Positions 8,499-54,775 of a stretch of 64,000 nucleotides of DNA are shown piece after piece; the stretch's first letter is position 1; the number at the start of each line of letters is the position of its first letter. Source of the stretch: Hevea brasiliensis (Eukaryota > Streptophyta > Magnoliopsida > Malpighiales > Euphorbiaceae); contig NC_079510.1 of NCBI RefSeq assembly GCF_030052815.1, forward strand, positions 37,172,358 to 37,236,357, in the 5' to 3' direction. The position numbers and the translations under genes were made by a program. Below the pieces are notes generated by a model. It saw only the letters and a program-made list of their open reading frames with translations, ran no database searches and was not told where the DNA came from.

Positions 8499-9836
8499 TT
8501 ATGTGGTAGAACTTTGTTCTTGCTGTTTTGGTGGAGGATTCGTATTTCTCTGCTGCAAATTAGGCAATGGTTGCATATTTTGCTGATATGGAATTTCTTG
8601 TTGCTGTTGTGGCTGAAGATTCTGATTTGGGACTTGACTTTGCTGATTTCCCCATGAAAAGTTGGGATGATTCCTCCAAGTTGGATTATAAGTTTGAGAG
8701 TAAGGATTCCCCATTTGTTTGTTTCCATAATTACCAACATATGCAGCTTGCTCTTCATAGTCTACTCCACAGCTGATAGTTCCTTCTACATAAGCAACTT
8801 GTCGTGAACTTCCAGATGATGATGATGAACTAACCAACATACTTAAATATTTCATCTTCTTAGCAAAAACATTTGTAAGTGCATCAAACTTTGCATTAAT
8901 AATGTTGAATGGATCAAGGTCATACATTCCAGCAGCTTGCGTCTTTTGAGTTGGAGCTGGTCCTCTTGGACTACTCCAAAGATGAGTATTCTTTGCAATT
9001 TTCTCCAATAGCTCATAAGCTTCATCTTCATGCTTCATAATAAATTCTCCTCCTGTTTGAGCATCAATTATCCCTCTAATTACAGGAGTAACATTGGTAT
9101 AAAAATTCTGGTTTATCATCCATTTTGGAATGGCATGATGTGGGCATTGTCTCTCTAATTCCTTCCATCTCATCCATGATTCATAGAGAGTTTCATCTTC
9201 TCTTGGTCTAAAAGCTGTCATTTGATTCCTCAATTCTTGAGTTTTTTTAGGTGGAAAATATTGTGTAAGAAATGCATCAGTGAGTTGCTCCCAATTTGTA
9301 ATGGAGTTGTGAGGTAAAGAATTAAGCCAATCCAATGCTCTATCCTTCAAAGAGAATGGGAATAGCTTCAATCTTGCTGCATCATCAGATACTCCAGGTT
9401 GTTTTTGCATATCACAAATCATAGCAAACTTTTTTAGATGTGTGTGTGGATTTTCAGAAGGATGTCCCCTAAATTGGGAATTTTGAATCATTTGAAGAAC
9501 CCCAAAATCCATCTTGTAGCTATTTGCATCAATTCTTGGTCTTACTATACTCTCTCTCAAGTCATCAAAACGAGGAAAAGCATGATCCATCATACTTCCC
9601 CTAGGCACATTAGCATTTACAACCTCTTCACCTTGAGCTGCATGTTCATTGTTTCGATCATTTCCAGCATTACCACCACCAATTCTAATTCTTTCATCAG
9701 CCATGTCTGCTTCAATTTCAGTTTCTCTCAAGGCTTCTTTCCTTTTTCTGGTTTCTTTCTTGTTGGCTCTACAAAATTTCTCAATTTTAGGATTAAACAA
9801 TAAGGATGTGTCACTTGTGCTGCTAGCTCTTCTCAT
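8499..9836 (-). pseudogene. gag: Athila-type gag (capsid) region
   Basis: An open frame of 445 codons starting at 9836. The N-terminal part is basic and mixed. The middle holds the plant retrotransposon gag domain, with the hallmark segment around LKLFPFSLKDRALDWL and the downstream W-E-L and YFP motifs. The C-terminal third is rich in Gln, Asn and Pro, ending at a stop at 8499. The same frame continues into the protease region, so the stop is probably a lesion in an originally continuous gag-pol ORF. Gag forms the virus-like particle in the cytoplasm. Confidence 0.88.
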
Positions 9837-9948
9837 AAAAGATTAAGAGTACCTAAAAAAAGAACAAACAAACACAAAATGAAAAGATAACAAAGATAAA
9901 ACTACAAACAACTAAAATAATCAAGAATTCAATCTTAAATAAACAACT

Positions 9949-17621: not shown

Positions 17622-19214
17622 TCACATGAGATTTCCATCATTTTCTCCATTTGAAGACCCAAATCTTTCAAAAACCTTAACCTTCAAACCCTTTTCAATA
17701 AAAAGTAACAAAGAAACACTTGGACCAATAGGATGGTTTTCAACCACTTGAAGAGAGAAATTCCATAAAACGGTAGAAGCAACCGTTTTCATTTGCAGAA
17801 ACGTCAAGTCCTTACCTAAACAAGTCCTGGGTCCTGCATTGAATGTTATGAACTTGTAAGACGGTACATGCTTGATTTCACCACTCTCTGATATCCATCT
17901 CTCTGGCTTGAATTCTAAGAAATCTTTACCCCATATATCTTCCATCCTTCCCATTGAATATAAACAATATATGATCTTCATATTTCCAGGGATTTGATGG
18001 CCGCTAGGAAGGATGTCTGGTCCAACAGAAGCTTTGTGCTCAAAAGGTACAGGTGGATACAGTCGGAGTGTCTCGCATATAACAGCATGGAGATAAACTA
18101 GTTTGCTTACCTCTTCGATACTGAAAATCTTCCACTTACCACCAGTTCCTTCTCTTAAATTTGCTTCCATCTCTTCCAAAATCTTTTTCTCTACAAATGG
18201 GTGTGTTGCAACTAGCCAGAAAAACCAAGCAAGTCCAGCAGCTACGGTGTCTCTTCCAGCCGCCAAGAGATTAAAGGCAGTGTCTCTTAGAAATTTGTTT
18301 GATTTAGTACAAATGGCATCTTCTCCTCTTTGATGATCTTTACTATTATCATCTCTCACCAAAAAGTATGTTAATAAGTCGAAATCCCCTAGTTCCTCCT
18401 GATTTCTGCTGCTTTGGCCTAATTGCTGTCGCTTTCTTGTAATGCATTGCTCTGCAAAATCATCAAAGATGTCCAAGGCTTTCCTAATCTTCTTCTCTTT
18501 CCCAATCTGCAGCCACCTTTGCAACTTCCAAATGCTTCCTGGCAAGGTGTGCCTGTAAATTGCAGCCTCCGACATGTCATCATAGGCCTTCGCACAAGGA
18601 ATATGAGGGAATTCTGGAGAAAGGGAATTCGGATCCAAACCTAAAACCAGTAAGCATATATTATCAAACATGAATCGCTTAAGCACATCTTGTATATCTA
18701 CCTCACTTGCTAGCATGGAAGCATTCTTTAGAATCGGGAATAGGCCATTCAAGATCTTCTGCTCCATAGTATTCTTTGCAGCAAGCTCGAACCTCCTGCT
18801 TTTAAGTACAGAATGAAATATTCTCCTTAGATTTCTCCAATTATCGGAGTCAGAAATGAAAATTCCATCTCCCATAGGTTCAAAAATCTCCCTGAAATCC
18901 TCGCCCTTGTGGTAGTTGGCAAAATTCTTGCTCAGGATGTGATGGATGTTCATAGGATCGCTAGTGAACACAAAATCCTTGTCGCCAAACCAATGTCCTT
19001 TGAATAGAAATGTGCCTTGACTTTGCTGGAGTATACAAGTGAAAAAATCATGGAGACGATATGAGTTCCAAGAAAGTTGTGGAATCATCCCTACTACAGG
19101 CCAGTTGATAAGTAGAGAGTTCCCATTCCACCACCAAAGCCAAAGGGTAAGTGTAACAATAAAGAGAAATGCTAGAATTGCTACTAGCATCTCTGAATAC
19201 CCAAGCATAGCCAT
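17622..19214 (-). CDS. Cytochrome P450, CYP96A-like (alkane hydroxylase type), intact and intronless
   Basis: One open frame of 530 codons. An N-terminal hydrophobic membrane anchor (about residues 8-29) is followed by NWPVVGMIPQL, the usual start of the CYP86-clan fold. The I-helix oxygen-activation motif AGRDT is at residues 319-323, the ExxR motif (ETLR) at 381-384, and FKPERW follows. The heme loop FNAGPRTCLGK starts at residue 458, with the axial cysteine at 465. The R-T-C-L-G form and lack of introns fit CYP96. In Arabidopsis CYP96A15 (MAH1) hydroxylates mid-chain alkanes in cuticular wax; CYP86 relatives oxidise fatty acids. Predicted site is the ER membrane, using a P450 reductase. 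The C-terminus is slightly long, ending in a Ser/Asn/Gly tail. Nothing is broken. Substrate is inferred only, and an expressed copy is likely. Confidence 0.93.
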   Translation of the reverse strand: MAMLGYSEMLVAILAFLFIVTLTLWLWWWNGNSLLINWPVVGMIPQLSWNSYRLHDFFTCILQQSQGTFLFKGHWFGDKDFVFTSDPMNIHHILSKNFANYHKGEDFREIFEPMGDGIFISDSDNWRNLRRIFHSVLKSRRFELAAKNTMEQKILNGLFPILKNASMLASEVDIQDVLKRFMFDNICLLVLGLDPNSLSPEFPHIPCAKAYDDMSEAAIYRHTLPGSIWKLQRWLQIGKEKKIRKALDIFDDFAEQCITRKRQQLGQSSRNQEELGDFDLLTYFLVRDDNSKDHQRGEDAICTKSNKFLRDTAFNLLAAGRDTVAAGLAWFFWLVATHPFVEKKILEEMEANLREGTGGKWKIFSIEEVSKLVYLHAVICETLRLYPPVPFEHKASVGPDILPSGHQIPGNMKIIYCLYSMGRMEDIWGKDFLEFKPERWISESGEIKHVPSYKFITFNAGPRTCLGKDLTFLQMKTVASTVLWNFSLQVVENHPIGPSVSLLLFIEKGLKVKVFERFGSSNGENDGNLM

Positions 19215-19290
19215 TTCTATGTCTCAAGTTGCACTCTATATTTTGTATATGCAACTCTTGGTATATGTTACAACATGCTTTTAAAACATA

Positions 19291-21194: not shown

Positions 21195-21584
21195 ATTAAA
21201 TAGGGATAAGTGTCAAAAAAAACTGTGCTTTTGAAAATTTTATAATTCTACCCCATAATATAAAAATTATCAATTAAATCCTAAACTTTTTAATTTTTGT
21301 CAATTTTATCCAACTATTAAGAAAACTGTTATTCTATTAATAAAGAGGCTACGTAAGATGCCATGTAAGTATAACCTAGTTGTAGTTAACATATAAGAGA
21401 AACACATATCTTTAAATAAAAATATATATATATTTTTTTAATTCAATATAAGTACTTTGTATTAATATGTATTTGATAAGTTGAACTTAATTTTTTCTTT
21501 GTTGTTGACAAACGAAACAAAAATTTGGGATTAGGATATTTGAAAAGACTGAGCACATGTATTTTTGGGTAGGAACATATTATT
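21195..21584 (+). mobile_element. Left part of a terminal-inverted-repeat element (MITE-like), split by the gypsy insertion
   Basis: The sequence from AATAGGGATAAGTGTC through GAAAACTGTTATTCTATTAA is matched in inverse orientation by 34130-34292 on the far side of the retrotransposon. Together with 34056-34292 it makes an element of about 0.6 kb with arms of about 170 bp. No coding capacity is seen. Confidence 0.75.
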
Positions 21585-24309
21585 TGTCATGACCCAAAAT
21601 ATGGACCGGATCGACACTACGACTTGGGTAAGTATAAGACCCCCAAAACCCGTAGTAAGCCTAAACTATTCCTTAGCCCAACTTAAAAGCCCATATTCGA
21701 GCACATTTCAAGAAACCAACCAGACAAAATCCGGCCATAACCTAGACCATCTAACGGGGAGTTATTAACTCACCCAACTTGTAATCTCAATAAAAATATA
21801 TTTGGGAAGTTCAACTCACCCATACAATCATCCACAAATTAAAATAAAATCAAGTGGAAGCTCAGCACCCTCATCCAAACCACAAGCCTAACCCATTCAA
21901 CCATACATGCATCATATGAAGTTTACAATTTCCAAATACGTAATCTTTACAATCCCAAATCAAATTAAATATTTTCTAACATATACAGAGTTCTAGATTT
22001 CAACTGACAATATAAATTACAAAAATAGACATAAGAGGACCTGCAAGGAAGAAAACAGGTCAATTACATGTAAAGCTCTCTTATAATCTGGGAAAAATGG
22101 GCAAATAGGAGTAAGCATTTGACTCATAGAATAGTATATTGATTTTAAATACAATTTCTATAATCAATTTCTATAACTATCTAGTACTAATGCATCCCTA
22201 TGAATAAAATGCAACATAGATCAATAAAGTCATTCAATTCAAATAACATTTGCACAAAAAATTATTTGGAGCACTCACGCACCCGTGTGTTACATCAATC
22301 AATATACATATATGAGAGCTGATATGCTATATAGCTCTCTTAATCTAATGTCTGCCAGTGAGATCAACTCGAGCCAGACTTTCTCTTAATAATCCAAATG
22401 CAGGAATCAGCGAGATTAATACAAAGCCATACTCACCCTGACTTATCACAAAAAGGACCGGGCCCCAAGCGAGACTAGCTCAAGCCGATCTACCAGTCCT
22501 ATCCATATCTATCACATCGCATACAGGCACACACACTGCTCCAAATCATTCTAAGGCGACTTCCACATCCATTATACAAACAAGAAAATGCAACATAAAT
22601 GGTGCCTAGCAATTAGCTGCATACATATATTTATATGTTATACATGAGCATGCCTTGAATATATAATAATAATATTGAAATTATAAATAAAATCAATATC
22701 TATTCACAACTTAACCAAAAGTCATTGCGGTGGCTGAGCGGAGGAGGAAGGCTGGCTCGGCTCACCTAAACATTATATCAAAAATTTTATCAATATTTAT
22801 TCAAACAAAACTTTAAAAAGTCAAAGGACAAATTCTAAATTTTGCCAAAAATCCAGCAGAGTTTCCCCTATACCTAGGACCTACCCAACTTGCAAAATGA
22901 TCCAAATAACACTTCTAATACACAAACCCCACATCCACATCTCATCATCATCATATGGCTCCTCTTGGGCCCTCCAAAATAGTTAATACTCACAATTTTG
23001 AAAAATTATATTTTAATCCCTATAACTATCATTTTATCATAAATCATTCAAACGAGCTCTAAAATTTCTAAAATTTTTCTCTGTGGTCGTTAACAATATT
23101 ATGAAGCTAATGTAAAAGAATTTATAATTTTCTAGCCACCCACGAATATTTTATAGATTTTTATTCTAAATTCGACACTAGGAAATTGAAGAAACTTTGA
23201 GTTTAGATTTATCTATGCCAATTTTGATGCTTGAAACATGTTCGTGACGTCTGAAAATGGCGGGATAGACTATAATTTTGACTCAATTCTGAAGTTGTTT
23301 CCGTAGCCCGTCTGTCTGATCGGAAATTACAGACCCAAGTAACGGTCGAATTTCCGCAAAACGAAAGTACCTACACAAAGCTCACAATACCAGAGGTTAG
23401 AATAAAATTGTTACAAAATTAAATGAACTCATTTGGAGCTCGAAAATACATTGCGAAGTTCGAGAGACCCATTGAAATTTTAGTGTCAAAAAATTTTAAA
23501 ATTTATATGGTTGCGAAGCTCTCGTTGAGTAGAGCACGCCAGTACTCTCAGAATTTTTGTGGAGTTTCCAGTTTGAGAGAAATTTAGACCAAAAGTCAAA
23601 ATTGGCTAAAATTTTTCGGGTAAAAATTGGACAATCTACTCAATGAAAATTTGTGATCTTAGTGTCTATAAAAAGCTCTTAAGGAGTAGAAGGTGTTTGG
23701 GATAAGACCCGGTCCGATTGGTGGCCAGATCAACTGCATTTTGGTCAAGAAGTTGAAAAGGTGCGCGCACATGAGGGAGGTTTCAAGCTCAATTTTTTGG
23801 CCACTGGAGCGGCAGTCGGCAGCCAGGAGGGGTGCTGGAGGTGCACCGGTGAGTTGGAGAGGGAAGGGCAGTGGTTGGCGAGCGAGGGGAGGAGACAGGA
23901 GAGAGAAAATGAGAGAGGGAGAGGGAATGTCGGGCGAGCGCGAGGAGGAAGAAAGAAGAAGGAAAAATGGGCCCGTTCGATTCAATCGGTCTGATCCAGT
24001 TTGGTTTAATTTTACCGATTAGATTTAGAATACCCAAAATTGAATTTTTACTCGATCCTGAGATAAAAAATGAAACCCAAAAATTCCAAAAAAGTTTCAG
24101 AAAACTCAGAAAAATTTTTGGAGTCCAAATATATTTTTATTTTTGCCATGTGATCTTAATTTTTATAAATCAATTAAATTTATTAGTTTAAGAAAATCGA
24201 ACCTGATTTTTAAAATTCAGAAAAAATCCAAATAATTTTCATAATTTTAATGCAATAAAATATTGATATTTACATATAAAATGATTATTTAAAAATTAGA
24301 GGTATTACA
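21585..24309 (-). repeat. 3' LTR of the chromovirus
   Basis: On the minus strand it starts TGTAATACC at 24309 and ends GGTCATGACA at 21585. It is colinear with 31346-34055 throughout. Its GC-rich segment is 23680-24000. Confidence 0.92.
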
Positions 24310-24322
24310 TCATTCTCCCCTT
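24310..24322 (-). other. Polypurine tract
   Basis: The minus strand reads AAGGGGAGAATGA directly before the 3' LTR. This is the plus-strand DNA priming site and confirms the element direction. Confidence 0.8.
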
Positions 24323-31329: not shown

Positions 31330-31345
31330 GCTCTGATAAAATTAT
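31330..31345 (-). other. Degraded primer binding site (tRNA-Met type)
   Basis: The minus strand just inside the LTR reads AATAATTTTATCAGAGC. The TATCAGAGC core matches the complement of the initiator tRNA-Met 3' end used by chromoviruses. The first bases (TGG) have mutated. Confidence 0.6.
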
Positions 31346-34055
31346 TATCACGACCCAAATTATGGGCTGGACCGGTACTAGAACTTGGGTCAGCATAAGA
31401 CTGCAAAAGCGCGTAGTAAGCCTAAACTATTCCTTACCCCAACCTAAAAGCCCATATTCAAGCCCATTTCAAGAAAACAACTGGACAGAGTCTGGCTATA
31501 ACCTGGACCATCCAACGGGGAGTTATTAACTCACCCGACCTATAATCGCAATAAAAATACATTTGGGGATCTCAACTCACCCATACAATCATCCATAAAT
31601 TAAAATAAAATCAAGTGGAAGCTCAGCTCCCTCTTCCAAACCATAAGCCCAATCCATTCAACCATACATGCATCATATGAAGTTAACAATTTCCAAATAT
31701 ATAATCTTTACAATTCCAAATCAAATTAAATATTTTCTGTGGAGTTCTAGATTTTAATTGATAATATAAATTACAAGAATAGGCATAAAAGGACCTGCAA
31801 GGAAGAGAACAGGTCAATTACATGTAAAGCTCTCCTGTAACCTGGGAAAAATGAGCAAACAAGAGTAAGCATTTGACTCATAAAGTAGTATATTGATTTT
31901 AAATACAATTTCTATAACTATCTAGCACTACTGCATCCCTATGGATGAAATGCAACATAGATCAACAAATTCATCCAATTCAAACAATATTCGCATAAAG
32001 AATAATTTGGAGTACTCATACACCCACATGTCACATCAATAAATATACATATATGGGAACTGATCCCCTATACAACTCTCTTAATCCAATGTCTGCCAGC
32101 GAGATCAACTCGAGCTAGACTTTCTCTTAATAATCCAAATGGGGGGGCTCAGCGAGATCAACTCAAAGCCGTACTCACCCTAACTTATCACAAAAAGGAC
32201 CGGGCCTCAAGCGAGACTAGCTAAAGCCCATCTGCCTATCCTATCCATATCCATCACATTGCATACACACGCACATACACATTGCTCCAAATCATCCTAA
32301 GGCGACATCCACATCCATTATACAAATAAGAAAATGCAACATAGATGGTGCCTAGCAATTAGCTACATACATATATTTATATATGATGCATGAACATGCC
32401 TTGAATATATAATAATAATACTGAAATTATAGATAAAATCAATATCTACTCACAATTTAACCAAAGGTCACTACGGTGGCTGGCCGAAGGAGAAAGGCTG
32501 GCTCGGCTCACCTAAACATTATATCAAAAATTTTATTAATATTTATTCAAACAAAACTTCAAAAAGTTAAAGGATAAATCCTAAGTTTTGCCTAAAATCC
32601 AGTAGAGTTTCCCCTATACCTAGAACCTACCCAACCTGTAAAATTATCCAAATAATACTTTTAATGCACAAATCTCATTTCCACATCTCATCATCATATG
32701 GCCCCTTCTGGGCCCTCCAAAATAATTAATACTCACAATTTTTAAAAATTACATTTTAGTCCCTATAATTATCATTTTATCATAAATCATTCAAACAAAC
32801 TCTAAAATTTCTAAAATTTTACCCTGCGGTCCTTAACAATATTATGAAACATTATGCAAAAGGATTTATAATTTTTTAGCTACCCATGAATATTTTATAG
32901 ATTTTTATTCTAAATTCGGTACTAGGAAATTGAAGAAACTTAGGGTTTGGATTTACCTATGCCAATTCTGATGCTTGGAACACGTCCGGAATCTCTAAAA
33001 ATGGTAGGGTAGACTATAATTTTGACCCGATTTTGAAGTTGTTTCCGTAGCCCGTCTGTCCGGCCGAAAATTATAGATTCAAGTGACGGTTGAATTTCCA
33101 CAAAATGAAAGTACCTACGTAAAGCTCACAACACAAGGGGTTAGAAGAAAATTATTACAAAATTAAATAAGCTCATTTGGAGCTCGAAAAAAACACTGCG
33201 AAATTCGAGAGACCCATCGAAGTTTTGGTATCGAAAAATTTTGAAATTTATATGGTTGTAAAGCTCTCATTGAGTAGAGTACGCCGGTACTCTCAGAATT
33301 TTCGTGGGGTTTCCAGTTTAGGAGAAATTTAGCCCAAACGTAAAAATCAGCTAAACTTTCCGAGCAAAAATTGGACAATCTACCTGATGAAAATTTCTGA
33401 TATTGGTGTCCATGGAAAGCTCTTGAGGAGTAGAAGGTGTTTGGGACAAGACCCAGTCCGATTGGTGGCTGGATCTGCCGAATTTTGGTCGGGAAGTAGA
33501 AAAGGCGCGCACGCGTGAGGGAGATTTCAAGCTCGATTTTCCAACTACTGGAGCGCTGCCGACGGTGGGGAGTGGTGCTGGAGGTGTGCCTATGAGCTAG
33601 GGAGGGAGGGGCGGTGGTTGGCCGGTGAGAGGAGGAGAGAGGAGAGAGAAAATGAGAAAGGGAGAGGGAATGTTGAGCGTGCGAGGAGGAAGAAAGAAGA
33701 AGGAAAATGGGCCGGTTCGATTTAATCGGTCCAATCCAGTCCGGTTTGATTCAGCTGGTTCAATTTAGGATACTCGAAATTAAATTTTTACTCTGCCCTG
33801 AGACCAAAAACGAAGCCCAAAAATTTTGAAAAATTTTTAAAAAACTCAGAAAAACTTTTGGAGTTCAAATATATTTATATTTTTGCCACGTGATCTTTAA
33901 ATTAATTTTTATAAATCAATGAAATTTATTAGTTTAAGAATATGGAACCCGATTTTTAAAATTTAGAAAAATTCCAAATAATTTTCATAATTTTAATACA
34001 ACAAAATATTAATATTTACATATAAAATAATTATTTAAAAATTAGGGGTGTTACA
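31346..34055 (-). repeat. 5' LTR of the chromovirus
   Basis: On the minus strand it starts TGTAACACCCC at 34055 and ends GGTCGTGATA at 31346. The expected terminal CA has become TA. It is colinear with the 3' LTR, with scattered substitutions and small indels. Confidence 0.92.
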
Positions 34056-34292
34056 TTATTTCAGTATGCTAATATGAAAAGTATTGTATATTATTTAAGT
34101 TGTATCCTTATGCAGCGCTTATATGCCGTCTCTGTTAGCGAAATAACAGTTTTCTTAACGGTTGTGGTAAATTTGGTAAGAGTCAAATGTTTAAGATTTA
34201 ATTTGTAATTTTCATAGTATAGGATAAAATTATAAAAATTTGAAAAATATAGAGTTTATTGCCAGTTATCCCTATTAATTTTGGACTACACT
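34056..34292 (+). mobile_element. Right part of the same terminal-inverted-repeat element
   Basis: Contains AATAACAGTTTTCTTAA (about 34144) and ends near GCCAGTTATCCCTATTAA. These are the inverse complement of the left arm at 21195-21370, with mismatches. The first five bases (TTATT) are the gypsy target duplication. Confidence 0.75.
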
Positions 34293-40119: not shown

Positions 40120-41970
40120 CAATACTTTTAAACTCTAAATTCTATTTAACACATTGTACTACTCCTACCATATATAAATTTCATCTCAAAAATTTAGAGG
40201 ACATACAACTTAAAGTTTCATGAGAAATTCTTACAAAAATGGTCTCATGAGAAATTAGCAGATCAAATTTTAAGGTTCTATATATTGAAAATACCTTAAT
40301 TAAAACCATCAAAACTAAAATATTGACACAATTATTAATATCTTTTGCTATTTAAATCAAAGTTATCAAAATGTAGGCATCACATTTACTTATTTTATTA
40401 TTTAAAATTAATTTTTTAATAAAATTATTAAATGTTTCATCAATATTTATTTTAATTTTAAATTTCTTTAAGTTTCCTTTTTATTTTTTAATTTTTAATA
40501 TTTATTCTATTTATATATAATATATTGTAAAATTATTTAAAAATTTAAAATTATATTACACAAATTATAAATAAATTATTCAATATATAAAGTATGCATG
40601 TTTTCCCATAATGTTGCCTTATGGGATTACAGATTTATGCCAAAAAGTATAATTTATTTGTGCCACATAGACCACATAGAATTATAATTATAATGCATTT
40701 AACACTTCTTTTTATAATTATAAGGAATAATAATAATTAATTATTATATCATGAAAACAAATTTCTTCATTATTACTTACAATTCTGAATAAAAATAATA
40801 ATGTAGGAGCTAAATATAAATAATTAATTATATATATATAATTATTTATTTATTTATTTAAAATAAAAAAATTTTATTTTATTATTTTAGTTGCATTTAT
40901 TCAGTAAAAGTATATAAATTCTAATTATTATGATAGAAATAATTATAGCTATAATGGTAGCTAATTAACTTAGCTTTTGGCTTTAATAATATAACTAACA
41001 CATATTAACATATATTTCATACCTAAAACTTTTATATAGTACAAATATATATTTTATTTTTATTTTTTATTATCATTATAATTTTTATATTATTAATTTC
41101 TTTTTTAAAAAAATATTAATAACACTAATAAAGATAATATTTAAATATTTTTTAATATATTAAGAGGTTATATATAAAAAAAAAATTAATATTTTAAAAT
41201 ATGAAAATATCATATGATTTAACCAATATCAAATTATTTCATATTTTTTATTATTTTTATTAAATTTTTTTATAATATTATGAAATTTTCATTTAAAAAA
41301 TTGTGAGATTAAAATTTTGATCGACATAATGTTAATAAAAATAAAATAATTAACTATAAATTAACATATTTATTTTCATATATTAAAATTAAAAATTATT
41401 TATATATTATTTATATATGAAAATTATTAATTGCTAGGTATAAAGTATGGCCAATTACAAATAGTTTTATAAGTTCTAACTAGCAATGTCCATTGAATAT
41501 AATCCATTAACACATACTTCATCAAAGCGACACAAGAACACAGTAATTTAGTTGATGGTGATCGCATTAACGACCAAGAACACAATTAATCACCTTGATA
41601 AGCATCGATGCTTATTTCAAAGGGATCCATAGTTAAGTTTCTGTCCCTTCATCTTCAGTATTTTAAAATCAAACCTTTAATTAAACAAAAAAATTAATTT
41701 TTAATTTTCAGACTCTTAAATTCTACATATAAATTTTAAATATTTAATAAATTATATATTTGGAATAATTTTTTAAAAAGTTAATGTTAATAATTATAAT
41801 CATAAAGCTAAAAATTGAGATTTTTGTATTATTAAATTTTAGTCGTTTAATTATTAATAAACACGAAGAGCTAGTGATATTGAATTACTGATGACCAATT
41901 ATAATTTATTAAATCAAATATACATTAGAAAAAAATTAACCTTCTTGTTATGAAACACATATATAGTGAG
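40120..41970 (+). repeat. Direct repeat, left copy (about 1.85 kb, AT-rich)
   Basis: Colinear with 53000-54775 in the same orientation. Examples of near-identical blocks are CATCACATTTACTTATTT, TAATCCATTAACACATACTTC and TTTCAAAGGGATCCATAGTT. No coding sequence was seen. Confidence 0.88.
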
Positions 41971-42389
41971 GATTTTCTTTGTCTAAATTCAGTCTAATAT
42001 GGATCAAGATACAAGATATATGGTAGGACTTACTTATTAAAACATAGACCCCACATATTTATGTATTAAATTTATAGGGAACTGAATTTAGGTAAGAATT
42101 TCCCATATATTCAAATCAATGAATTGACCCCAAGTTCCTTTAGAGAGAGATAGTCCCTATCTTTCAATCTTCTTGGTTTACTCTCGGATTGCCAAACTTT
42201 TTGGGTTCAGTTGACTCCTTTGCCCTTTAAGCAAGGTAAGGTGCCTTTGCCCTCTAAGGAGGGGAAGGTGGAGTTTTTTTTGCCGACTTTGGGTTTCCCT
42301 CATTCTCACATGTCATAATGCAAGAGGTCAAAATTCAAACTCTCACACCTCATTCTCTTAAAAATTTTCAAAATATATGGATTTGACTA
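41971..42389. other. Intergenic DNA left of the Mutator-like element
   Basis: No gene is seen; the sequence is moderately AT-rich. Confidence 0.4.
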
Positions 42390-42894
42390 GGTGTACAAAA
42401 AAACGTTTACAAAAATTGTACAAATAAGATAAAATGTCCTTTTTGCCCTTAAACCATTTAGGCTCCAAATTTATTTATTTTTCCTCTAAAATCCAACCAA
42501 TTATTGTCTTTCTTTCTTTTTATCAATCAGCTTTCATCAATGTTTCAACCAATCAGATTGCATCAAAACTTCGATTAATCACATTGCACCAAACCTTTAA
42601 CCAATCAATAGCTTTCACCAATCTCTCAACCAATAATATTCCATCAAAAATTCAACCAATCATGACTAATCCTTCCAAAAATTCAACCAATCATAGTCTT
42701 TTTCATATTTTTCCATCCAAATCATATTTTCATCTCTTAGAAAAAAAATATATTTCCTTCATCCATGGTTTAGGGTAGAATGAAAATTATTCCTAAAAGA
42801 AAATTATCAATCTTCTTCCACTCTAATAAACATACCAATACCGTCCAAGATTTTTTGTTATAGTGGGTGAATCTTATAGTATCGATTAAGGGTA

Positions 42895-44058
42895 ATGATG
42901 GTTGAAAATGAGAGAAGACGGAGAGAGCTGTACGATACATTAGGGATTAGAGATGATGATAGCTTGTTCGATAAAAAATCTCTTAGCGATGAACCTTCCA
43001 ATGGCGCCAATGGCACACCTTAATCAACCTCCATTACCCTTAATCAAATTAATACCCTTAAGCGCCAAGAGCAGATTAAGCGCTTATTGTACTATGATGT
43101 GAATCCACCAAATGAGGATGAAGAGAGCAATGAGCATGGCACGGAGATATACAATATACTGGAGAGGTGCATAATCAATGATTGGTACCAAAAGGAGTTT
43201 GTCTACAGGGTTGAGCCCAGAGAAAATTGGCAATATTTCAGCTGCAATTGCAAAAAATTCGATTCAAACGGAATACTTTGTTGACACATCTTGAAAGTGA
43301 TAGTTACAAAAGGCATCGAGGTAATAAACGAAAGATATTTATTTAGGAGGTGGAGAAAAGATGTGCACCATGCATATATTAAAAAGTTTTTTGCTGCAGG
43401 CTATCCAATGATGACAGAGGAATACAAGAAATACCATGAACTTGAGGGAGATTTTGCACAAATAACTAACATTGTTATTGGCAATACGCAGAAGATGGAG
43501 TATGTTAAGAGGCAACTTCGAGCTTTGCAAGTGAATTTATCAAAATGGAATGATGGATTATTAGCTTCTGCAGCAGGCTCAGAAAATGTTGGCATTGCAA
43601 ATTCAGATAGTTCAATTGCTATTTTGAATCCAAATGAGGCTCATAGCCGTAGAAGGCCACGAAGTAATTGATTTTGATCAAAACATGAATTGAATGGAGG
43701 AAGCAACCATAGCAGAACTAGAGGTAGGAGAGGTCGATGTGAATGCGGCAAGCGTGTAGCTGGTGAAGGGTGAACCACAAACTTCGTCATACAAAATAAT
43801 ATAGATCAGGTTATAATAATATAATTTCGCTGGTAATTATAATTGGATAGGTAATTAGTAGTTTTTTTTTTTATAGGCAGTTCATCAATAAAAAAAAATT
43901 TAATTTTTCACATTTTGTTTGTTTGACAGGAAAATGCACGTGATCATCATGGTACCTCAATAAATAATAGTGGAGATGGAATCCTAATTAGCCAACATCA
44001 AAGTGTTGCGCACATTGACAGTGATTTTAGTTTTGAAAATCTGAATTTGACCTTATAG
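42895..44058 (+). pseudogene. FAR1/FRS-like (MULE) transposase, C-terminal SWIM part
   Basis: A short N-terminal piece (ATG at 42895) is followed by a SWIM zinc finger. Its C-x-C...C-x-H pattern reads FSCNCKKFDSNGILC-stop-HILK, with a TGA at 43282-43284 just before the His. Next come LFRRWRKDVHHAYIK and a predicted helical region to about 43600, then a basic RRRPRSN segment. A donor at 43810 and an acceptor at 43929 frame a last exon ending TAG at 44056. FAR1/FRS transcription factors and MULE transposases share this layout. The FAR1 DNA-binding domain and the DDE core that should precede the SWIM finger are absent, so this copy has no catalytic part. It has several stops. Confidence 0.78.
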
Positions 44059-44460
44059 TGCTGATGATTCTTTGAGTAATTTTGGTCATTTCATATCACT
44101 TTGTGAATATATACTGAGTGTTATTCTTATTTACTCTAGTATTATTTTTTTGGTATGGGCTTCCTTAAATTTGGATTTTTGTTGTTAATGGATTCTTTGA
44201 TGGGATTAAGTTAAGCATGTGGTAATTCATTCTGCATGTTTATTTTGAATCTTTAGTTTCTTCATTGTTAATTTGGTTAGCAGGATTTTTCAAGTGTAAA
44301 TTTTGACCATTAGTATGTGTAATTATTCTATTATACTTTCCTTTTTCCCTCTTTAATTTGCTCAAGTTAGTGAACTTCTCAAATTGTGCTTCTCATTGAA
44401 CAAGAGGACTGTTAGTTGTTGTGGGAATATTTTGTTTATCATTATTAGTACAAAGGAAGA

Positions 44461-45407
44461 ATGGCAGCTGTAAATGATAACAAAGACTCGTTAGTGATAG
44501 AGGTTACTGATGATCGCCTCTCTAACTAGGTAATATTCTATGATATAACAATGTCTCTTTTTTTTTTATTAACAGATACTTCCCATATATATTCCATTTG
44601 ATAATTTTTTTCTAACCACGTCTCTTTTAATGTTATGTTAATACAGGAGCTACCAAATGATGTTCTTCAATATCTGAATGTGGTTTTGTTAGATACGATA
44701 GTGCTATATGTAGGAAGACTATAGCCACACCAGTGGACTATTGGAATTGAAAAGGAGGAAAATGGAAGCAACATACGATTCAAAGAGGGTGATTTAGTGG
44801 ATGTAATTAACCATTAAAGTCCACTGACCACTTCTCCTATTGATGCTGCTTATTTCAACATCAAATCTGATTCAATGAGCATGTTCCTATTCAACAGTGA
44901 TGGAGTGGAGATTTGTTACGGACCTCATCTAGGTGAAGACTTTGTTTATGTCTCGTCAGATGACGAGTATGAAGGTAATCTGAATAGACTGATGTTCACT
45001 GCGCAAATGAATACTTGCGACTGGAAGTACAAGTTGGTAAGTTATTAAATTTTTTTCTTCCTTTGATAATCATGTAATTTGATTTAAATATAATTTTAAT
45101 TTTACTTGGCAAATGTAATTTGAAAATAACATTTGCGTAGAATATTCCACTATCCTTCGCAAAGGATAATTTAGGTACTGAACCAAAGGAAGTTGATCTT
45201 CAATGCCCAGCGAGCGGGACAAATTTCAAGGTGAAATACGTGCCTAGGTTGGACAACAAAGGTTGCTTATATAAGGACAAATTTGAAAAGGGTTGGGGGC
45301 AATTCCTTGGCCATAATGAAGTGAAGAGAGGGGAAAAGGTTTCTTTTCAACTAGCTGACACTTCTGCTAATGAGATTGTGTTTACTACAACCATTATAAG
45401 GCAATAG
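44461..45407 (+). pseudogene. Three-exon gene with C-terminal B3-like domain, inside the Mutator-like element
   Basis: Exon 1 is 44461-44529, exon 2 44647-45036, exon 3 45141-45407. All introns have GT-AG ends and the three exons join in phase (23 + 130 + 88 codons). In-frame stops occur at the end of exon 1 (TAG), in exon 2 (TAG and TAA), so this copy is dead. Exon 3 reads IPLSFAKDNLG, then ASGTNFKVKYVP, then KFEKGWGQFLGHNEVKRGEK and FQL. This is the pattern of a plant B3 DNA-binding domain, where a GW..F...N.L..GD..F segment is diagnostic. The exon 2 part (QWTIGIEKEENGSNIRFKEG) may be a weak first B3-like unit. The assignment rests on pattern recognition. It may be a captured host gene or an accessory gene of the element. 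Confidence 0.55.
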
Positions 45408-46859
45408 ATGATGATATCTCCATTGCCTTATATGGTTGATTATGCTTTTTTTTTTTTGGTATATTGTGAACTTGTATTTGACTATTGGGTTTGAATTGTG
45501 AACTTATCTTTAGGTGGCGGCTAAAATCCTAGCACTATATTATCATATTATTATTAAGTTATGGATATTATTATATGTGCATGATATTTCAAACTCTTAC
45601 AATGAATTGCTTCTTTATAATTAGTGTCAATATTATACAAGATAATTATATTTGCTTATATGTACAATACCAAATTTGGCTATGATAATGCTATATAGCT
45701 TGCTTAAATTTTGTAAATATTACAATTTTATTTGCTTTGCACTTAATTTATGCTTAAAATTATCAAGCAATGTCCAATACTGCTAGGGTTGGAATATCTG
45801 CTTTTACTTCTTGTATTATTCCTTTGCTGTCCAAGCCCTACATCACTTGTGTTGCTGTAATATCCATGAGGGGTGGGGGGTCAAATTTACATTATACATG
45901 AAATTTGCATGTGCTGGTCATCATGTAAAATGGACATGAACTGCACCCCTACGTTTTACTACGATTTGCACTTAGTTTTTACTTGAAAATGCCAAACAAT
46001 GACCAATACCATTAAGGCTAGTAATTTGTACATTTTTCATATGCTGTGTTGGGCATGAAATATAAAATTGAATTGTTACTTTGTTCGTAACTCTTTGAAT
46101 GATTTTCATCTAATTTCCATCCATTTATAGGCTTAATTAGTGGCAAATAAATCAAAGGAAATGGAAGAGAATATTTACTATTTCAATAATAAAAATTAAA
46201 TACAAGGCTTAATAAAATTATAATATAAAACTATGGATTCTTTCTCTACAATAAAATTACCAATAATCCCATATTTTCCTCGAATTTAGATTAATTAAAA
46301 CCAATCAAATTCACATGATATTATACATAATTCATGAAAAAAAAAATGCCTGTCAAAGTGAACCATTGGATTTAGATATTAGTAGTCCTACTAAAACTCC
46401 AGCGAGGAAATAGATCTGAGCATTCTTATTTGTCCCTTCGTATTCTTGTATGTCGATTTCTTCAACATTAAGCACTCAAGATGTGCCTTTACCTATCTTT
46501 TTATCGTTACAATATTGATCATAAGCATAAAGAGCTTCATCATAACTATTAAAATACTTGTAAACACTTCCACTTACACCTAAAATAGCCGATGCACAAT
46601 CTTACCATGAAAAAAATACTCTGCTAGTTCTACCTTCGAAGACAATATAATATTTTCTATTTTTCTTCCCTCTTATAAAAATCAAATCACCTCCCATTGT
46701 TGCAAAGCTTGGAGTGTGTATGACATGGAAAATATAAATTTGATTCGAAAATAACCAAAAAAAAAAGATTAAACCGAAAATAGATACATGAAAAAAATTA
46801 AACCGAAAATGCTTAAGGTTGGATTGTGGAGTCTCTTGCTTGAGAAGGGTTATGGAGTT
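45408..46859. other. Non-coding part of the Mutator-like element
   Basis: No gene is supported. AT-rich with weak internal repetition (TTTGCACTTAATTTATGC near 45740 against TTTGCACTTAGTTTTTAC near 45966). Confidence 0.4.
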
Positions 46860-46890
46860 AGAGGTTGAGATAGGTAATTATTTGGTTAAT

Positions 46891-47060
46891 GGGATGGTGG
46901 GCTCTGATAGGTTATAGTAATGGTGAGCTCTAATAGGCTAAAAGGATGGTGGGTTCTGATAGGTTATAGTAATGGTGGGCTCTAATAGGCTAAAAGAATG
47001 GTAGGTTCTGATAGGTTAATGGAATGGTAGGCTCTGATAGGTTAAATGGATGGTGAGATG
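46891..47060. repeat. Subterminal 26-27 bp tandem array
   Basis: Six units of the type GGTGGGCTCTGATAGGTTA, alternating with CTAATAGGCTAAAA versions, at the right end of the Mutator-like element. The left end has related, less regular CAACCAATC repeats in inverse orientation. Confidence 0.85.
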
Positions 47061-47309
47061 GTCTCTAATTGGTTGAAAATTTGGTGAAAAATGATAGGTT
47101 AGAAAGTTGATGATATTTGATTGGGTGACCAATAATAGAAAAGAGAGAAGTTACAAATTTTGAAATTCAAATCTGAAAAATCCATAAAGGGTTAAATAGA
47201 CATTGTACATCTAAAAAGTGTTATGAATTTACTGAATTACCCCTTTTTGTACGTTTTTGTACACCAAATTTTGTACACCAAGCATTTTCCTAAAAAAAAA
47301 TGAAGATTT

Positions 47310-47548
47310 TGTTATAAAACCATCTTTATGATGGATGTTCATTTAGTTTCCTAATAAGTCTATTTAACTTCTACATGAATTTTATTTAATATTGTGACTT
47401 TTGGTATGTCATTTATATACTATAAATAAGGGGTTTCCTTAACCCAATGGATATACACTCTAAGACTTATCTTATGTTTTTATAATAATATTCTCTCTAA
47501 ATTCTCTCTACATTTCCTATCTTGATCTATACTATTATTTTTATAATA
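47310..47548 (+). repeat. 5' LTR of the copia element
   Basis: Starts TGTTATAAAA and ends TTTTTATAATA. It contains a TATAAATAAG promoter-like word near 47421. It is 35 bp longer than the 3' LTR because of a CT-rich insert (or a deletion in the other copy) near 47495-47535. The CGTTATCAGCACGAG that follows (47549) is the likely primer site, of a type I recall from other plant copia elements but cannot assign to a tRNA. Confidence 0.88.
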
Positions 47549-47589
47549 CGTTATCAGCACGAGTCTCTAGCCTTAACCATATATAGGTT

Positions 47590-48482
47590 TCATATTTTCT
47601 TCTTTATGATTTCAAAAGTGCCAAGGCTGGATAATTGGACAACTTGTGATTTTCGACAACCCAACTGAAAGGAAATATTGTTATCCAAATCAAGAAATTA
47701 TTAAAAGTTCTTTGAGGTAATTTTGTTATTAATCTTTTATCAATAATAATTATTTCTTTATTTCTAACGTTGAATTCTTAATGACAATACATCAGATTTG
47801 TCAAAATTTGAATATGTGACTTTTGATACTATGTGGAGAAACTATTACTGATGAAGATATGTTAAAAAAAACATTCTTCACCTTTCATGCCCCGAATATG
47901 CTCCTGCAACAGCAATATCGATAAAAGGGTTTTTAGAAATATTATGAATTGATTTCATGCCTTCTTGTGGTTGAACAAAATAATGAATTATTGATGAAAA
48001 TTCATGAAAATCAACCAATTGGTTCTACTCCATTCCCTAAAGTGAATGAGCCTTCTATTTACTATTCTAAACGTGGAAGAGGTTGTGGCCTCAGTCGTGG
48101 CCGTGGCTATGGTCGTGGTTGAGGAAGAAATATGTATTACAATCATGGTGGTCCTAATTCATCAAATTATAAGAATACATCTCACCACTTGAAGTGGAAA
48201 AAGAAGGATGAGAAACAAGAAACAGAATAATATAAAAATTCAGAAGAACTATACTATCGGTGTGGTGTGAAAGGACACTGGTCGCGTACCTGTCATACGC
48301 CAAAACATCTTATTGTTCTTTATCAAGCATTACTAAAAAAGAAAGATCAAAATGCAGAAAAAAATTTTATTTTATAAAGTGATGATACTGATGTTAATAT
48401 CACACACCTCAATTTAGCAGATTTCTTTGCATATCCTGAAGGAAAAATTAATCATTTGATTGGTGATGAAAATGTTCGTTAA
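47590..48482 (+). pseudogene. gag: Copia gag, with C-terminal RGRG region and zinc knuckle
   Basis: The start near 47610 is broken. The readable part has an Arg-Gly region (SKRGRGCGLSRGRGYGRG) and a CCHC-type knuckle reading YYRCGVKGHWSRTC, in which the first Cys has become Tyr. It ends with a conserved acidic tail (LNLADFFAYPEGKINHLIGD). Several in-frame stops are present. Confidence 0.8.
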
Positions 48483-48639
48483 AATCACTTTAATGTTTTT
48501 GTTCTTTTATTTTAGTTAATATTGTCATGTTATTTTTCGCATTTTACTTTAGGTATTTTGTGTCATGTTTTGTTTTAATGATGATATTTTTAATCTATTT
48601 CTTATATTGTATTTCTTTTTTCTTTCTTTTAAAGATAAT

Positions 48640-50500
48640 ATGAATATGAATATTCCAAAATTTTTGTTTGGATCAAAGACCAATGATGAAGATATGTGTT
48701 TAATTGACAGTGTAACTATACATACCATATTTAAACATCAAAAATATTTTTCTCATTTGCTTAATTGAAAAGCAAATGTTAACACAATATTTGGTAGTAC
48801 AAATTTAATTAAAGGCTCCGAAAGAGCCATTGTATTTCTACTTGAAAGAATAAAACTCATTATAAACAATGCATTATTTTCTTCAAAGTCTCGAAGAAAT
48901 TTATTAAGTTTTAAAGATATCAGCCGAAATGGATACCATATTGAGATCATAAATGAAATGAATGTTGAATATCTTTGTATTACCGATAATATCTCAAGTA
49001 TGAAATGTGTATTAGAAAAAATACCTACTTTGTCTTCTAGCTTATACTATACCAAGATTAGTACAATTGAAATGCATTCTATTGTAAACCAGAAATTTAC
49101 TAATCCAAACATCTTTATACTTTGGCATGATCAATTGGGTCATCCTAAATCTATAATGATGAGAAGAATAATTGAAAATTCATATGGCCATCCTTTAAAG
49201 AACTAAAAGATTCTTGCAACTAACGAATTTTCTTGTGTTGCTTGTTATCAAGGCAAATTGATTATTAGACTATCACCAATAAAGGTTGGGATTGAATCCC
49301 CTGTATTTTTAGAATGTATCCATAGGGATATATGTGGACCTACACATCCACCTAGTGGATATTTTATGGTCCTAATAGATGCATCTTCAAGATGGTCACA
49401 TTTATGTCTATTATCAACTCACAACCTGATATTTGCGATATTGCTTGCACAGATAATCCAATTAAGGGCACAATTTCCAAATTATCCAATTAAATCTATT
49501 CGTCTTGATAATGTTGCAGAGTTCTCATCCCATGCATTTAATGAATACTGTTTAACATTGGAATAACTGTTGAACATCCCATAGCATATGTTCATACACA
49601 AAATAGCCTAGCAGAGTCATTTATTAAACGTCTTTAGTTAATTGCACGACCACTACTTATCAGAACAAAATTATCCATTTGTGTTTTGGGTCATGCTATT
49701 CTTAATGTAGCAGCACTTGTTCGTCTTAGGCCAACAAACTATCATAAATTCTCCCCATTACAATTAGCTTTGGGTCATGAACCAAATATTTTTAATTTAA
49801 GAATTTTTGGATGTGTTGTATGTGCCATAGCACCAACACAATGCACTAAAATGGGCCTTTAGAGAATGTTAGGAATATATGTTGGGTGTGAATCACCCTC
49901 CATTATTTGCTATCTTGAACCATTAACAGGAGATTTATTTACAGCTCACTTTGCTGATTGTCAATTTGATAAAACAATTGTTCTAGAATTAGGGGGAGAG
50001 AAAAAGGAAATCAAAAGAGAAATTGAGTGGAAGGTTTCATTACATCATCTTGATCCTCGTGTAACTATATGTGAACACGGAGATCCTCGTGCATCTATAT
50101 GTGAACAAGAAGTTCAAAAGATTATTTATTTGCAAAGAATAGCAAATCAAATACTTGATGAATTTATTGATTCAAAAAGAATAACAAAATCACATATACT
50201 AGCTACAAATGCTCTAGTTCGAATTGATGTCCCCGCAGGACCATCTATTAGTGCTATTACTAATGAATTTAAAGTACGCGTGAAGCATGATAGACCATTG
50301 GATTTTAAAGATAAAAATCCTAGAAGGAAGAAAACAGTAAATAATCAAAGTAGCACTATTGAAGAATCAAATAAAAATGATCAAGACATCATTAATCATG
50401 AAATTCCTATAGAAATAATTCCTAAAGAAATTCATACACCTGAACCTCAAGGACATGAGGAAAAATTAATAGATTTTGTTAGTGCAAAAAAAAAATAAAT
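48640..50500 (+). pseudogene. Copia protease remnant and integrase
   Basis: From 48643 the frame has the region where the protease DSG motif should be; it reads CLIDSVTIHT, so Gly is lost. The gag-pre-integrase block follows, with WHDQLGHP (49123). The integrase core has the first Asp in CIHRDICGP and the second in IRLDNVAEF; the Glu comes after a frameshift at about 49563 (NSLAESFIKR). The C-terminal region and linker (49866-50498) include a short duplicated phrase, DPRVTICE and DPRASICE. Stops and frameshifts interrupt it at least four times. Confidence 0.83.
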
Positions 50501-50503
50501 CAA

Positions 50504-51420
50504 ATGGCAACAGTCATTGATGATGTTTTTGCCTATACCATTGCACTTGATATTATGAAGGATAATGAGGATCTTGAACCTCAATATGTTGAAGAATGTC
50601 GAAAAAGATGTGATTGGCCAAAATGGAACGATGCAATTCAATCAGAATTGAATTCACTTGGGAAACGTGAAGTTTTTGGACCTATAGTCCAAACACCAAA
50701 AGGTGTAAAATCGATAGGATATAAATGGATTTTTGTGCAAAAACGGAATAAGCATAATAAAATTATAAGATATAAAGTACGCCTTATGGCACAAGATTTT
50801 TCACAACGACCTGGCATTAATTATGAAGAAATATATTCTCCGGTTTGGGATACAACAACATTTTGATATCTCATCTGTATGGTGGTACATTAAAGCTTTG
50901 AAATGCATTTGATGGATGTAGTTACAGCATATCTATATGGTTCACTTGATAGTGACATCTATATGAAAATCCTCAAAGGATTTCAATTGCCTGAAGCATA
51001 TAAGTCAAATTCTCGGGAAATACATTCAATTAAATTACAAAGATCTTTGTATGGTTTGAAGCAATATGGGCGCATGTGGTACAATCGCTTCAGTACATAT
51101 TTAGTGAAAGAAGGCTATATAAATGACCCAATTTGTCCTTGTGTTCTTATAAAGAAATCAGTATCTGAGTTTGTTAGCATTCTTGTATATGTTGATGATA
51201 TAAATCTCATTGGAACTCCAGCAAAGCTCCAAAAGGTAGTGAATTATTTGAAAAAAGAATTTGAGATGAAAGATCTTGGAAAGACAAAATTTTGTCTCGA
51301 TCTGCAAATTAAACATTTACAGCAAGGAATTTTTGCTCATCAATCTACCTATACAGATAAGATCTTGAAACGGTTTTATATGGATAAAGCACATCCATTG
51401 AGTACTCCAATGGTTGTTTA
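50504..51420 (+). pseudogene. Copia reverse transcriptase
   Basis: It starts with WNDAIQSELNSL and YKWIFVQKRN. A break near 50866-50903 removes part of the conserved fingers. The palm follows with MDVVTAYLYGSLDSDIYM, SLYGLKQYGRMWYNRF, and the catalytic YVDD (LVYVDDINLIGT). Family consensus has NAFL rather than TAYL, and KQSGR rather than KQYGR. Confidence 0.86.
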
Positions 51421-51489
51421 ATCACTTGATATGAATATAAAGTCCCATTTTGGCCTCAAGAAGATGATGAAGAAATTCTTAGTCCTGAA

Positions 51490-52200
51490 GTACCATATCT
51501 CAATGCAATAGTTGCACTTGTGTACCTTGCAACTACTATAAGACTAGATATAGCATTTTCTGTTAATACACTTGCAAGATATAGTTCTACTCCTACTCGG
51601 AGACATTGGAATGGAATGAAGCATATATTGCAATATTTAAAAGGAACAATTGATATGGGTTTATTTTATTCTAATAAATGTAGGCCAGATATAATTGGTT
51701 ATGCAAATGCAGGGTACTTATCTGATGCACACAAAGTAAAAACTCAAACAGGCTATTTATTCACTTTTGGTGGCACAGCTCTATCATGGCGATCTACAAA
51801 ACAATCTATAGTTACTACTTCTTCAAATCATGTAGAAATAATAGCAATTCATGAAGAGAGTCGAGAATGTGTTTGGCTCAGATTCATGACTCATTTTATT
51901 CAAGAAAAGTGTAGTTTATCTTGCAATAAAATGCCCATAGTATTATATGATGATAATGCAGCATGTATAGCCCAGTTGAATGGAAGATTCATTAAGGGAG
52001 ATAGAACAAAACATATTTCATCAAAAGTTTTTTTCACACATGATCTTCAGAAGAATGGTGGTATTGATGTGCAACAAATTCGTTCAAGTGATAATCCAGT
52101 AGATTTGTTCACCAAGTTTTTTCCATCTGCAACATTTGAGAAAATTGTGTATAAGATTGGAATGCGTTGGCTTAAGATTTTAAAAGCAGAGTTTCATTAG
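51490..52200 (+). pseudogene. Copia RNase H and C-terminal domain
   Basis: It reads YLATTIRLDIAFSVN, then the RNase H core with YANAGYLSD (consensus Asp-Ala changed to Asn-Ala), SWRSTKQSIVTTSSNHVE (consensus Ser-x-AE) and a DDNAACIAQ block. It ends with HISSKVFFTHDLQ and VDLFTKFFPS, typical of copia pol C-termini, with stop TAG at 52198. A frameshift near 51420-51490 separates it from RT. Confidence 0.86.
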
Positions 52201-52337
52201 GGGGAGTAAAATTTTTAGGCACAAAGAATATTGTACTCTTTTTTCTTCACTAGGATTTTTTTTTTTTCCTACTAAGTTTTTTCCTAGTAAAGTTTTAACA
52301 AAGCATATTCTTTACGCAATAGACATTCAAGGGGGAG

Positions 52338-52541
52338 TGTTATAAAACAATCTTTATGATGAATGTCCATTTAGTTTCTCAATTAGTCTATTAAACTTCT
52401 CCATGAATTTTATTTAATATTATGATTTTTGGTATGTCATTTGTATGCTATAAATAAGAGGTTTCCTTAACCCTATGGATATACACTCTTATACTATCTT
52501 CTGTTCTTATAATAATATTTTATATTATTATTTTTATAATA
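52338..52541 (+). repeat. 3' LTR of the copia element
   Basis: Starts TGTTATAAAA at 52338 and ends TTTTTATAATA at 52541. It is colinear with the 5' LTR, with scattered differences and one 35-bp gap. Confidence 0.9.
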
Positions 52542-52999: not shown

Positions 53000-54775
53000 A
53001 AAATCTACACATTGTACTAATCCTACCCTATATAAATTTCATTTCAAAAGTTTAGAGAACATATGACTTAAAGTCTCATGAAAAATTCTTACAAAAGAAG
53101 TCTCATGAGAAATTATCATATCAAAATTTAAGGTTTTATATATTAAAACTACCTCTACTAAAATCATCAAAATTAAAATATTGACACAAATTATCAATAC
53201 CTTTTGCTATTTAAATTAGAGTTATCAAAATGTTGGCATCACATTTACTTATTTCAATATTTAAAAATTAATTTTTTTAATGACATTATTAAATATTTCA
53301 TTAATATTTATTTTAATTTTAAATTTCTTGAAGTTTCCTTTTTAATTTTTTTAATATTTATTATAGTATGTATAATATATTATAAAATTATTTAAAATTA
53401 TATTATAAAAATTATAAATAAATTGTGCAACGTATAAAGTAGGCACTTTTCCATTATACTGCCATGTCGGATTACAAATTTTTGACAATTGATAATTTTT
53501 TTTAAAAATTATAATTTGTTTATGCCACGTAGCATTATAATATATTTAACACTTTTCTTATTATATCATGAAAATTTTTATAAACTTTTTATCACTTACA
53601 ATTTTGAATAAAAATAACGATATAGAGCTAAATATAAATAATTAATTTAATATATATAATTAATTGTCTATATTTGAAATAAAAAAAATTATTTTATTTA
53701 TTTTAGTTGCATTTATTTGATAAAAGTATATAAATTCTAATTATTATGATAGAAATAATCATAACTAATGTAGCCAATTAACTTAACTTTAATAATATTA
53801 ATGCTTATTAATACATAGTACAAACGTATATTTTTTTTATTTTTTATTTTTTATTATCATTGTACTTTTCATATTATTAATATCTTTTTTAGAAAAATAT
53901 TAATAACACTAATAAAGATAATTTTTAATTATTTTTAATATATTAAGAGGATGTAAAAAAATTCATATTTTAAAATTATAAAAATAATCGTATGATTTAA
54001 TCAATCTCAAATTATTCTATATATTTAATATTTTTTTTCTTAAAAATATTTTTATAATATTATTATGAAAAAAATTGTGGAATAAAAAGTTTAATATGCA
54101 TAAAAATTAATAAAAATAAATGAATACATAATAATTAACTATAAGTTTAAGATAATATTTTATTTTTTATATATTAAAATTAAAAATTATTTATATATTA
54201 AAATTATTAGTAGCTGTGTAGGTGTAGGTGTATAGTATTGCCAATTCTATAGTATTAGTAATGTCCATTAAATATAATCCATTAACACATACTTCATTAA
54301 AGGGACACAAGAACATCGTAATTTAATTGATGGTGATCGCATTAAAGACCAAGAACACAACTAAACCCCTTGATGAGCATCAATGCTTATTTCAAAGGGA
54401 TCCATAGTTAAGTTTCTGTCCCCTTCATCTTTATTATTTTAAAATTAAACTTTTAATTAAAGAAATAAAATTAATTTTTAATTTTCAGACTCTTAAATTC
54501 TACTTATTAATTTTAACTATTTAAAAAATTATATATTTGGAATAATTTTTAAAAAATTAATGTTAATAATTATAATCATAACGCTAAAATTGAGATAAAT
54601 TTTATTATTAAATTTTAGTCATTTAATTATTAATAAACACGAAAAGCTAGTCATATTGAATTATTGATCTCAACTGCATGCCGATGACCAATTATAATTA
54701 TTAAATCAAATATACATAAAAAAAAATAATAATAAGTTAACCTTCCTATCATACAACACATATATTTGATTCCAG
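53000..54775 (+). repeat. Direct repeat, right copy
   Basis: Colinear with 40120-41970. It differs by point changes, small gaps, and an extra piece of about 17 bp (CTCAACTGCATGCCGAT) near 54669. Confidence 0.88.

Follow-up and report, generated by a model that had tools for sequence, protein, structure and literature searches.

Why does a dead transposon of Hevea brasiliensis hold, beside the remains of its transposase, a gene for a protein with a B3 DNA-binding domain? The question is raised by positions 42390 to 47279 of a 64,000-nucleotide stretch of Hevea DNA (contig NC_079510.1, positions 37,172,358 to 37,236,357), which was analyzed whole and is called the window here. This locus is an internally deleted, stop-ridden remnant of a Mutator-like element (MULE). 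In the explanation that we favor, to which we give a probability of roughly 0.6, it is one dead copy, shortened by an internal deletion, from a two-gene Hevea MULE family, and the B3 protein would be an accessory that binds a ladder of subterminal repeats. A sequence-only reading of the same DNA had already proposed inverted ends with subterminal arrays, a FAR1-like SWIM segment that lacks the catalytic core and, about 400 bp downstream, a separate three-exon gene whose exons join in phase despite three stops and whose last exon has a B3 pattern; each of these proposals was borne out when examined by profile and repeat searches, as described below. The relatives used for comparison, P0001 to P0014, are predicted proteins from three protein searches (thresholds E ≤ 1, 0.01, and 10), which catch only relatives that fall within a length band and have 5-residue words exactly in common with the query. 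The parts of the element are as follows.

42390 to 42400, plus strand: left terminal inverted repeat core GGTGTACAAAA, exact match
42497 to 42693, plus strand: left subterminal array, five CCWATYA motifs with spacings of 52, 52, 55, and 31
42895 to 43020, plus strand: N-terminal piece of a FAR1-type transposase, first ~40 residues, identical to P0010 at 35 of 38 positions and to P0009 at 35 of 40
43021 to 43065, plus strand: deletion junction with filler
43066 to 43821, plus strand: C-terminal part of the transposase with internal stops, identical to P0004 at 212 of 253 positions
43930 to 44058, plus strand: 3' exon of the transposase with its stop at 44056-44058, identical to P0011 at 24 of 38 positions
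44461 to 44529, plus strand: B3 gene exon 1, 69 nt, with a start codon and one stop at the exon's end; P0002 starts at the same place
44647 to 45036, plus strand: B3 gene exon 2, 390 nt (130 codons), with two internal stops and no recognized domain
45141 to 45407, plus strand: B3 gene exon 3, 267 nt, B3 DNA-binding domain (PF02362), open to its stop
46905 to 47124, minus strand: right subterminal array, nine CCWATYA motifs with spacings of 26, 26, 31, 26, 26, 26, 26, and 26
47255 to 47279, minus strand: right terminal inverted repeat, with two exact copies of the core (47255-47265 and 47269-47279)

The two genes are enclosed by matching ends. Exact copies of GGTGTACAAAA occur at only three places in the whole window, once at the left end on the plus strand (42390-42400) and twice at the right end on the minus strand (47255-47265 and 47269-47279), and the terminal arms at 42387-42415 and 47254-47282 are 79% complementary over 29 nt, so that the element has the terminal inverted repeats of a FAR1-type MULE. 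When one mismatch was allowed, at least three matches were found in 22 of 100 shuffles, and a count of three is therefore not unusual; because the number of matches alone is unremarkable, the case for these ends rests on the placement and exactness of the copies. At the right end a perfect tandem repeat with a 14-bp unit and 1.9 copies (47255-47281) duplicates the core, which makes the right border of the MULE ambiguous. Inside these ends lie two mirrored arrays of CCWATYA, mostly at a 26-bp spacing, with five motifs on the plus strand in the left 500 bp (starting at 42497, 42549, 42601, 42656, and 42687) and nine on the minus strand in the right 479 bp (starting from 47124 down to 46911). No motif was found in the opposite sense in either the left 500 bp or the right 479 bp, and of 4,559 stretches of 500 bp placed at random, with overlap, in the rest of the window, none held more than 2 on one strand. 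The longer form AACCWATCA occurs 12 times in the window; 9 of these copies are within the two element ends and 1 more is inside the element.

The transposase is represented by its two extremities. Its C-terminal part contains a SWIM finger at about 43240-43308 (PF04434, E = 7.8e-6, with one stop read as X), followed by an arginine-rich tail, and a Pfam search of this segment gave no match to either PF10551 or PF03101. Added here to what the sequence-only reading had listed are the N-terminal piece at 42895-43020 and the 3' exon at 43930-44058. Relatives that bear the core align to the window solely on both sides of the gap, and what is missing corresponds to residues 39 to 395 of P0010, about 357 residues that comprise the FAR1 domain and the catalytic core. 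P0010, which is partial according to its source, combines a FAR1 match (PF03101, residues 89-167), a MULE core match (PF10551, residues 263-297), and a SWIM match (PF04434) in one transposase, of which the window copy keeps the N-terminal piece and the SWIM end. Since relatives hold the core and match the window on both sides of the gap, its loss is a deletion in the window copy rather than a feature of the family. The junction carries a filler in which positions 43024-43045 repeat 42884-42905 in inverted orientation (complementary at 91% over 22 nt, with 14 exact bases). Interrupted gap repair leaves filler of this kind, and it may be how the code for these residues was lost and replaced by short sequence derived from nearby.

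The B3 gene starts 402 bp past the transposase stop in the same orientation. Its three exons are all in phase and are joined by GT donors and AG acceptors, with three internal stops in total. Exon 3 matches the B3 profile PF02362 at E = 1e-6 over profile positions 18 to 95 of 101. The stops in this gene sit where the relatives have Trp, Gln, and Tyr and those in the transposase where they have Cys and Arg, and both genes of the window copy are therefore dead. When the 161 open codons of the window were allowed to diverge neutrally in a simulation at five divergences, the mean number of stops was 1.9 to 2.9, and 4.8 to 13.1% of runs were stop-free. A second B3 domain in exon 2 was considered but is not supported: in Pfam neither the window's exon nor that of any of three relatives had a match, nothing matched in the PDB, and exon 2 bore no resemblance to exon 3 at the profile level. 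The Pfam matches of a portion of exon 2 taken by itself were at chance level, and a comparison with solved structures by sequence likewise gave chance-level matches alone, such as the VRN1 B3 domain at E = 1.4, citrate synthase, and others.

The sequence-only reading had suggested asking whether the B3-like gene and the transposase travel together elsewhere. Fourteen distinct proteins were returned by the searches, 13 of them assigned to Hevea brasiliensis (P0014 being the remaining one), and no relative assigned to another species appeared at any of the three thresholds under the shared-word and length limits. Seven contain parts of the B3 gene (P0001, P0002, P0003, P0009, P0012, P0013, and P0014) and seven contain transposase only (P0004 to P0008, P0010, and P0011). 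P0012 (GH714_009701) agrees with the window at every position for 107 of its 114 residues before departing from the frame, which makes the window almost certainly Hevea, at this locus or in a near-identical copy, and P0012 is taken as the window's own locus. Among the six other B3-gene proteins, two also contain transposase. In P0009, an ankyrin-TPR protein is followed by the transposase start (42901-43020), 12 linking residues, and exon 2 of the B3 gene, and 11 of the 12 linking residues match 44366-44401, just upstream of the B3 gene in the window. In P0013, the transposase tail (43408-43731) is followed by 23 residues and then by exon 2 (44749-45021). The gene order and orientation of the window are kept in both. 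B3-like exons confined to this locus plus some unrelated host gene would have told against the sequence-only reading; in the predicted proteins P0009 and P0013 they stand with transposase instead.

A shared history of the two genes is also suggested by their subfamilies. The transposase tail of P0013 is nearest to those of P0007 (75 of 84 identical) and P0006 (73 of 87), compared to 69 of 87 for the window, and its B3-gene part is nearest to P0001 (85 of 91), compared to 61 of 89 for the window. For the window, the closest transposase tails are those of P0008 (39 of 45) and of P0004 and P0005 (75 of 87 each), and the closest B3-gene parts are those of P0009 (105 of 118) and P0014 (66 of 74). 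The same two subfamilies are therefore seen in the transposase tail and in the B3 gene, with the link from gene to gene provided by a single sequence in each, the window in one and P0013 in the other. Because the split is shared, the transposase and the B3 gene were, judging from these identities, probably paired before the subfamilies separated. Between subfamilies the B3 gene is 64 to 71% identical and the transposase tail 74 to 80%, the B3 gene being the more diverged, and P0002 forms a third B3-gene branch that is 62 to 71% identical to the others.

Several results weigh against the explanation that we favor. No target-site duplication of 8 to 9 bp with up to one mismatch was found around either end, FAR1-type MULEs being expected to have one of 8 to 11 bp; it may have decayed, and the ambiguity of the right border bears on this search too. 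The B3 match of exon 3 scores just below the curated Pfam cutoff (29.0 versus 30.1 bits), that of P0001 is weak and truncated (E = 0.038), and two AlphaFold2 models are of low confidence, with mean predicted local distance difference test (pLDDT) scores of 35.3 and 46.1. In the neutral simulation, 6 to 10% of runs at 67 to 73% identity were stop-free, and annotated proteins favor open frames. The 23 linking residues of P0013 have no convincing match in the window, and no transposase is present in four of the six other B3-gene proteins (P0001, P0002, P0003, and P0014), P0001 opening with 68 residues that also lack a convincing window match. Finally, the fused models P0009 and P0013 may be annotation merges, although even merges made by an annotator imply that the transposase and the B3 gene lie close together, because merging needs neighboring parts.

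If the two models are merges of mere neighbors, the B3 gene could be a separate repetitive gene or could belong to some other element, and the missing transposases, the doubled core that blurs the right border, and the lack of a target-site duplication would all fit with this. We consider such a chance association improbable, since order and orientation are alike in three places (the window, P0009, and P0013), the subfamily split is identical in both genes, and the two genes of the window are enclosed by matching ends and mirrored arrays. A less improbable alternative, which we nonetheless regard as unlikely, is that a host B3 gene was captured by the MULE and spread with it as passive cargo that does not serve the element. 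MULEs often carry pieces of host genes, the window copy has decayed, and the B3-gene models P0002 and P0003, in which no transposase is visible, continue into host-like ankyrin exons, all of which speaks for cargo. Against this, the B3 gene is not a fragment but complete, with a start, introns, and a stop of its own; it is present in both subfamilies; and no host B3 donor was returned at E ≤ 1, 0.01, or 10 in searches restricted to shared 5-residue words and a length band. The sequence-only reading had left the choice between a host gene capture and an accessory gene. The accessory gene is favored over a recent capture by the completeness of the gene, its constant place and orientation, its sharing of the transposase's split, and the absence of a host donor among the proteins returned.

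The window holds other features as well. A Ty1/copia-like element at 47310-52519, with a repeat pair at 47310-47492 and 52338-52519 that is 90% identical, has its start some 30 bp beyond the right end of the MULE. Both elements are bracketed by an AT-rich direct repeat (40149-41936 and 53007-54727, 81% over about 1.7 kb), as if they were nested in an older duplicated unit. Farther away, a 2.7-kb direct repeat pair (21579-24314 and 31341-34060, 86%) surrounds retroelement-like coding pieces, and a third, inverted copy at 12548-14747 is more diverged (72%). On the strand opposite a gag-like reading frame (8502-9842) there is an Rfam match to snoR71 at 9130-9236 (51 bits); either a retroelement harbors a small nucleolar RNA here, or the snoR71 family model recognizes retroelement sequence. 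A cytochrome P450 open frame of 533 residues (PF00067, E = 2.9e-64) is located at 17625-19223 on the minus strand.

The element was compared to known systems. It resembles the FAR1-type (Jittery-like or Hop-like) MULEs of flowering plants in that its relative P0010 has FAR1, MULE core, and SWIM domains in one transposase. The available portion of a 2019 survey of 1,631 autonomous MULEs (PMC6446971) describes plant Jittery elements with one open reading frame, with FAR1 at the N terminus and SWIM or CCHC at the C terminus, and a plant Hop subgroup that also has one, whereas here a B3-domain gene follows the transposase. A second sequence downstream of the transposase is already known in such MULEs, because some Jittery-like families of grapevine hold ULP sequences there (PMC2528002, in its available text). 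VANDAL elements share with the present one a second gene and dense arrays of a motif in one orientation in noncoding DNA; as described in the accessible part of PMC5735166, the VANC21 protein of VANDAL21 binds a nine-base motif arrayed in this way, and VANC proteins cause loss of methylation. According to the same part of that source, VANC contains DUF1985 and DUF287, whereas the second gene here contains B3, with no match to either DUF in the whole read-through B3-gene protein (E ≤ 10) or in exon 2. The transposase of the relatives here is also of the FAR1 type, and the arrays are mirrored at two inverted ends. En/Spm, a CACTA element, likewise has subterminal motif arrays at both ends, and its TNPA protein recognizes these repeats; transposition needs both TNPA and TNPD (PMC2613891, in the text available). 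En/Spm belongs to another superfamily, whereas this element has MULE transposase pieces and ends that read GGTGTACAAAA instead of CACTA, and TNPA-like binding here is putative. Pack-MULEs are similar in being nonautonomous MULEs with a gene of a host-type family; in them, host gene fragments replace any transposase, whereas transposase pieces remain here and the B3 gene is whole and common to two subfamilies.

No MULE with a B3 gene appears among the titles and abstract openings listed by literature searches, which covered a minority of subscription journals and only such bioRxiv preprints as are in PMC. The term B3 domain is absent from the available portion of a 2026 review of gene capture (PMC13317346), and the corresponding portion of PMC9289625 mentions the domain in long terminal repeat retrotransposon consensuses of Aegilops tauschii. 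Within the literature searched, a FAR1-type MULE that carries a B3 accessory gene is thus probably new.

Under the two-gene explanation, fuller relatives would encode a FAR1-type transposase, with FAR1, MULE core, SWIM, and an arginine-rich tail, followed by a small B3 gene in the same orientation. The B3 protein would bind the subterminal CCWATYA ladder and thereby mark the ends of the element. Its job there might resemble that of TNPA in En/Spm, aiding assembly of the transposase at the ends, or that of VANC in VANDAL, protecting the element against silencing. The mirrored placement of the arrays at the two ends appears to fit the TNPA model slightly better, and their density and tandem repetition, along with the greater divergence of the second gene, would fit the VANC model as well. 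More tentatively, and at somewhat less than even odds in our judgment, a lineage of FAR1-type MULEs in Hevea may have recruited a dedicated, faster-diverging B3 protein that coevolves with the 26-bp ladders at the element's own ends and controls either end recognition or escape from silencing. From the portions of the literature cited above, VANC provides an example of a sequence-specific anti-silencing protein encoded by a MULE, and TNPA provides one of a subterminal-repeat binder, in CACTA elements. If the Hevea lineage has indeed recruited such a protein, it would be a further solution beside these two, and transposons would be seen to recruit differing DNA-binding folds for end-binding or anti-silencing jobs. 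B3, a fold of plant transcription factors, would gain a role inside a DNA transposon, for which this locus offers a definite candidate pair, a protein and a DNA ladder.

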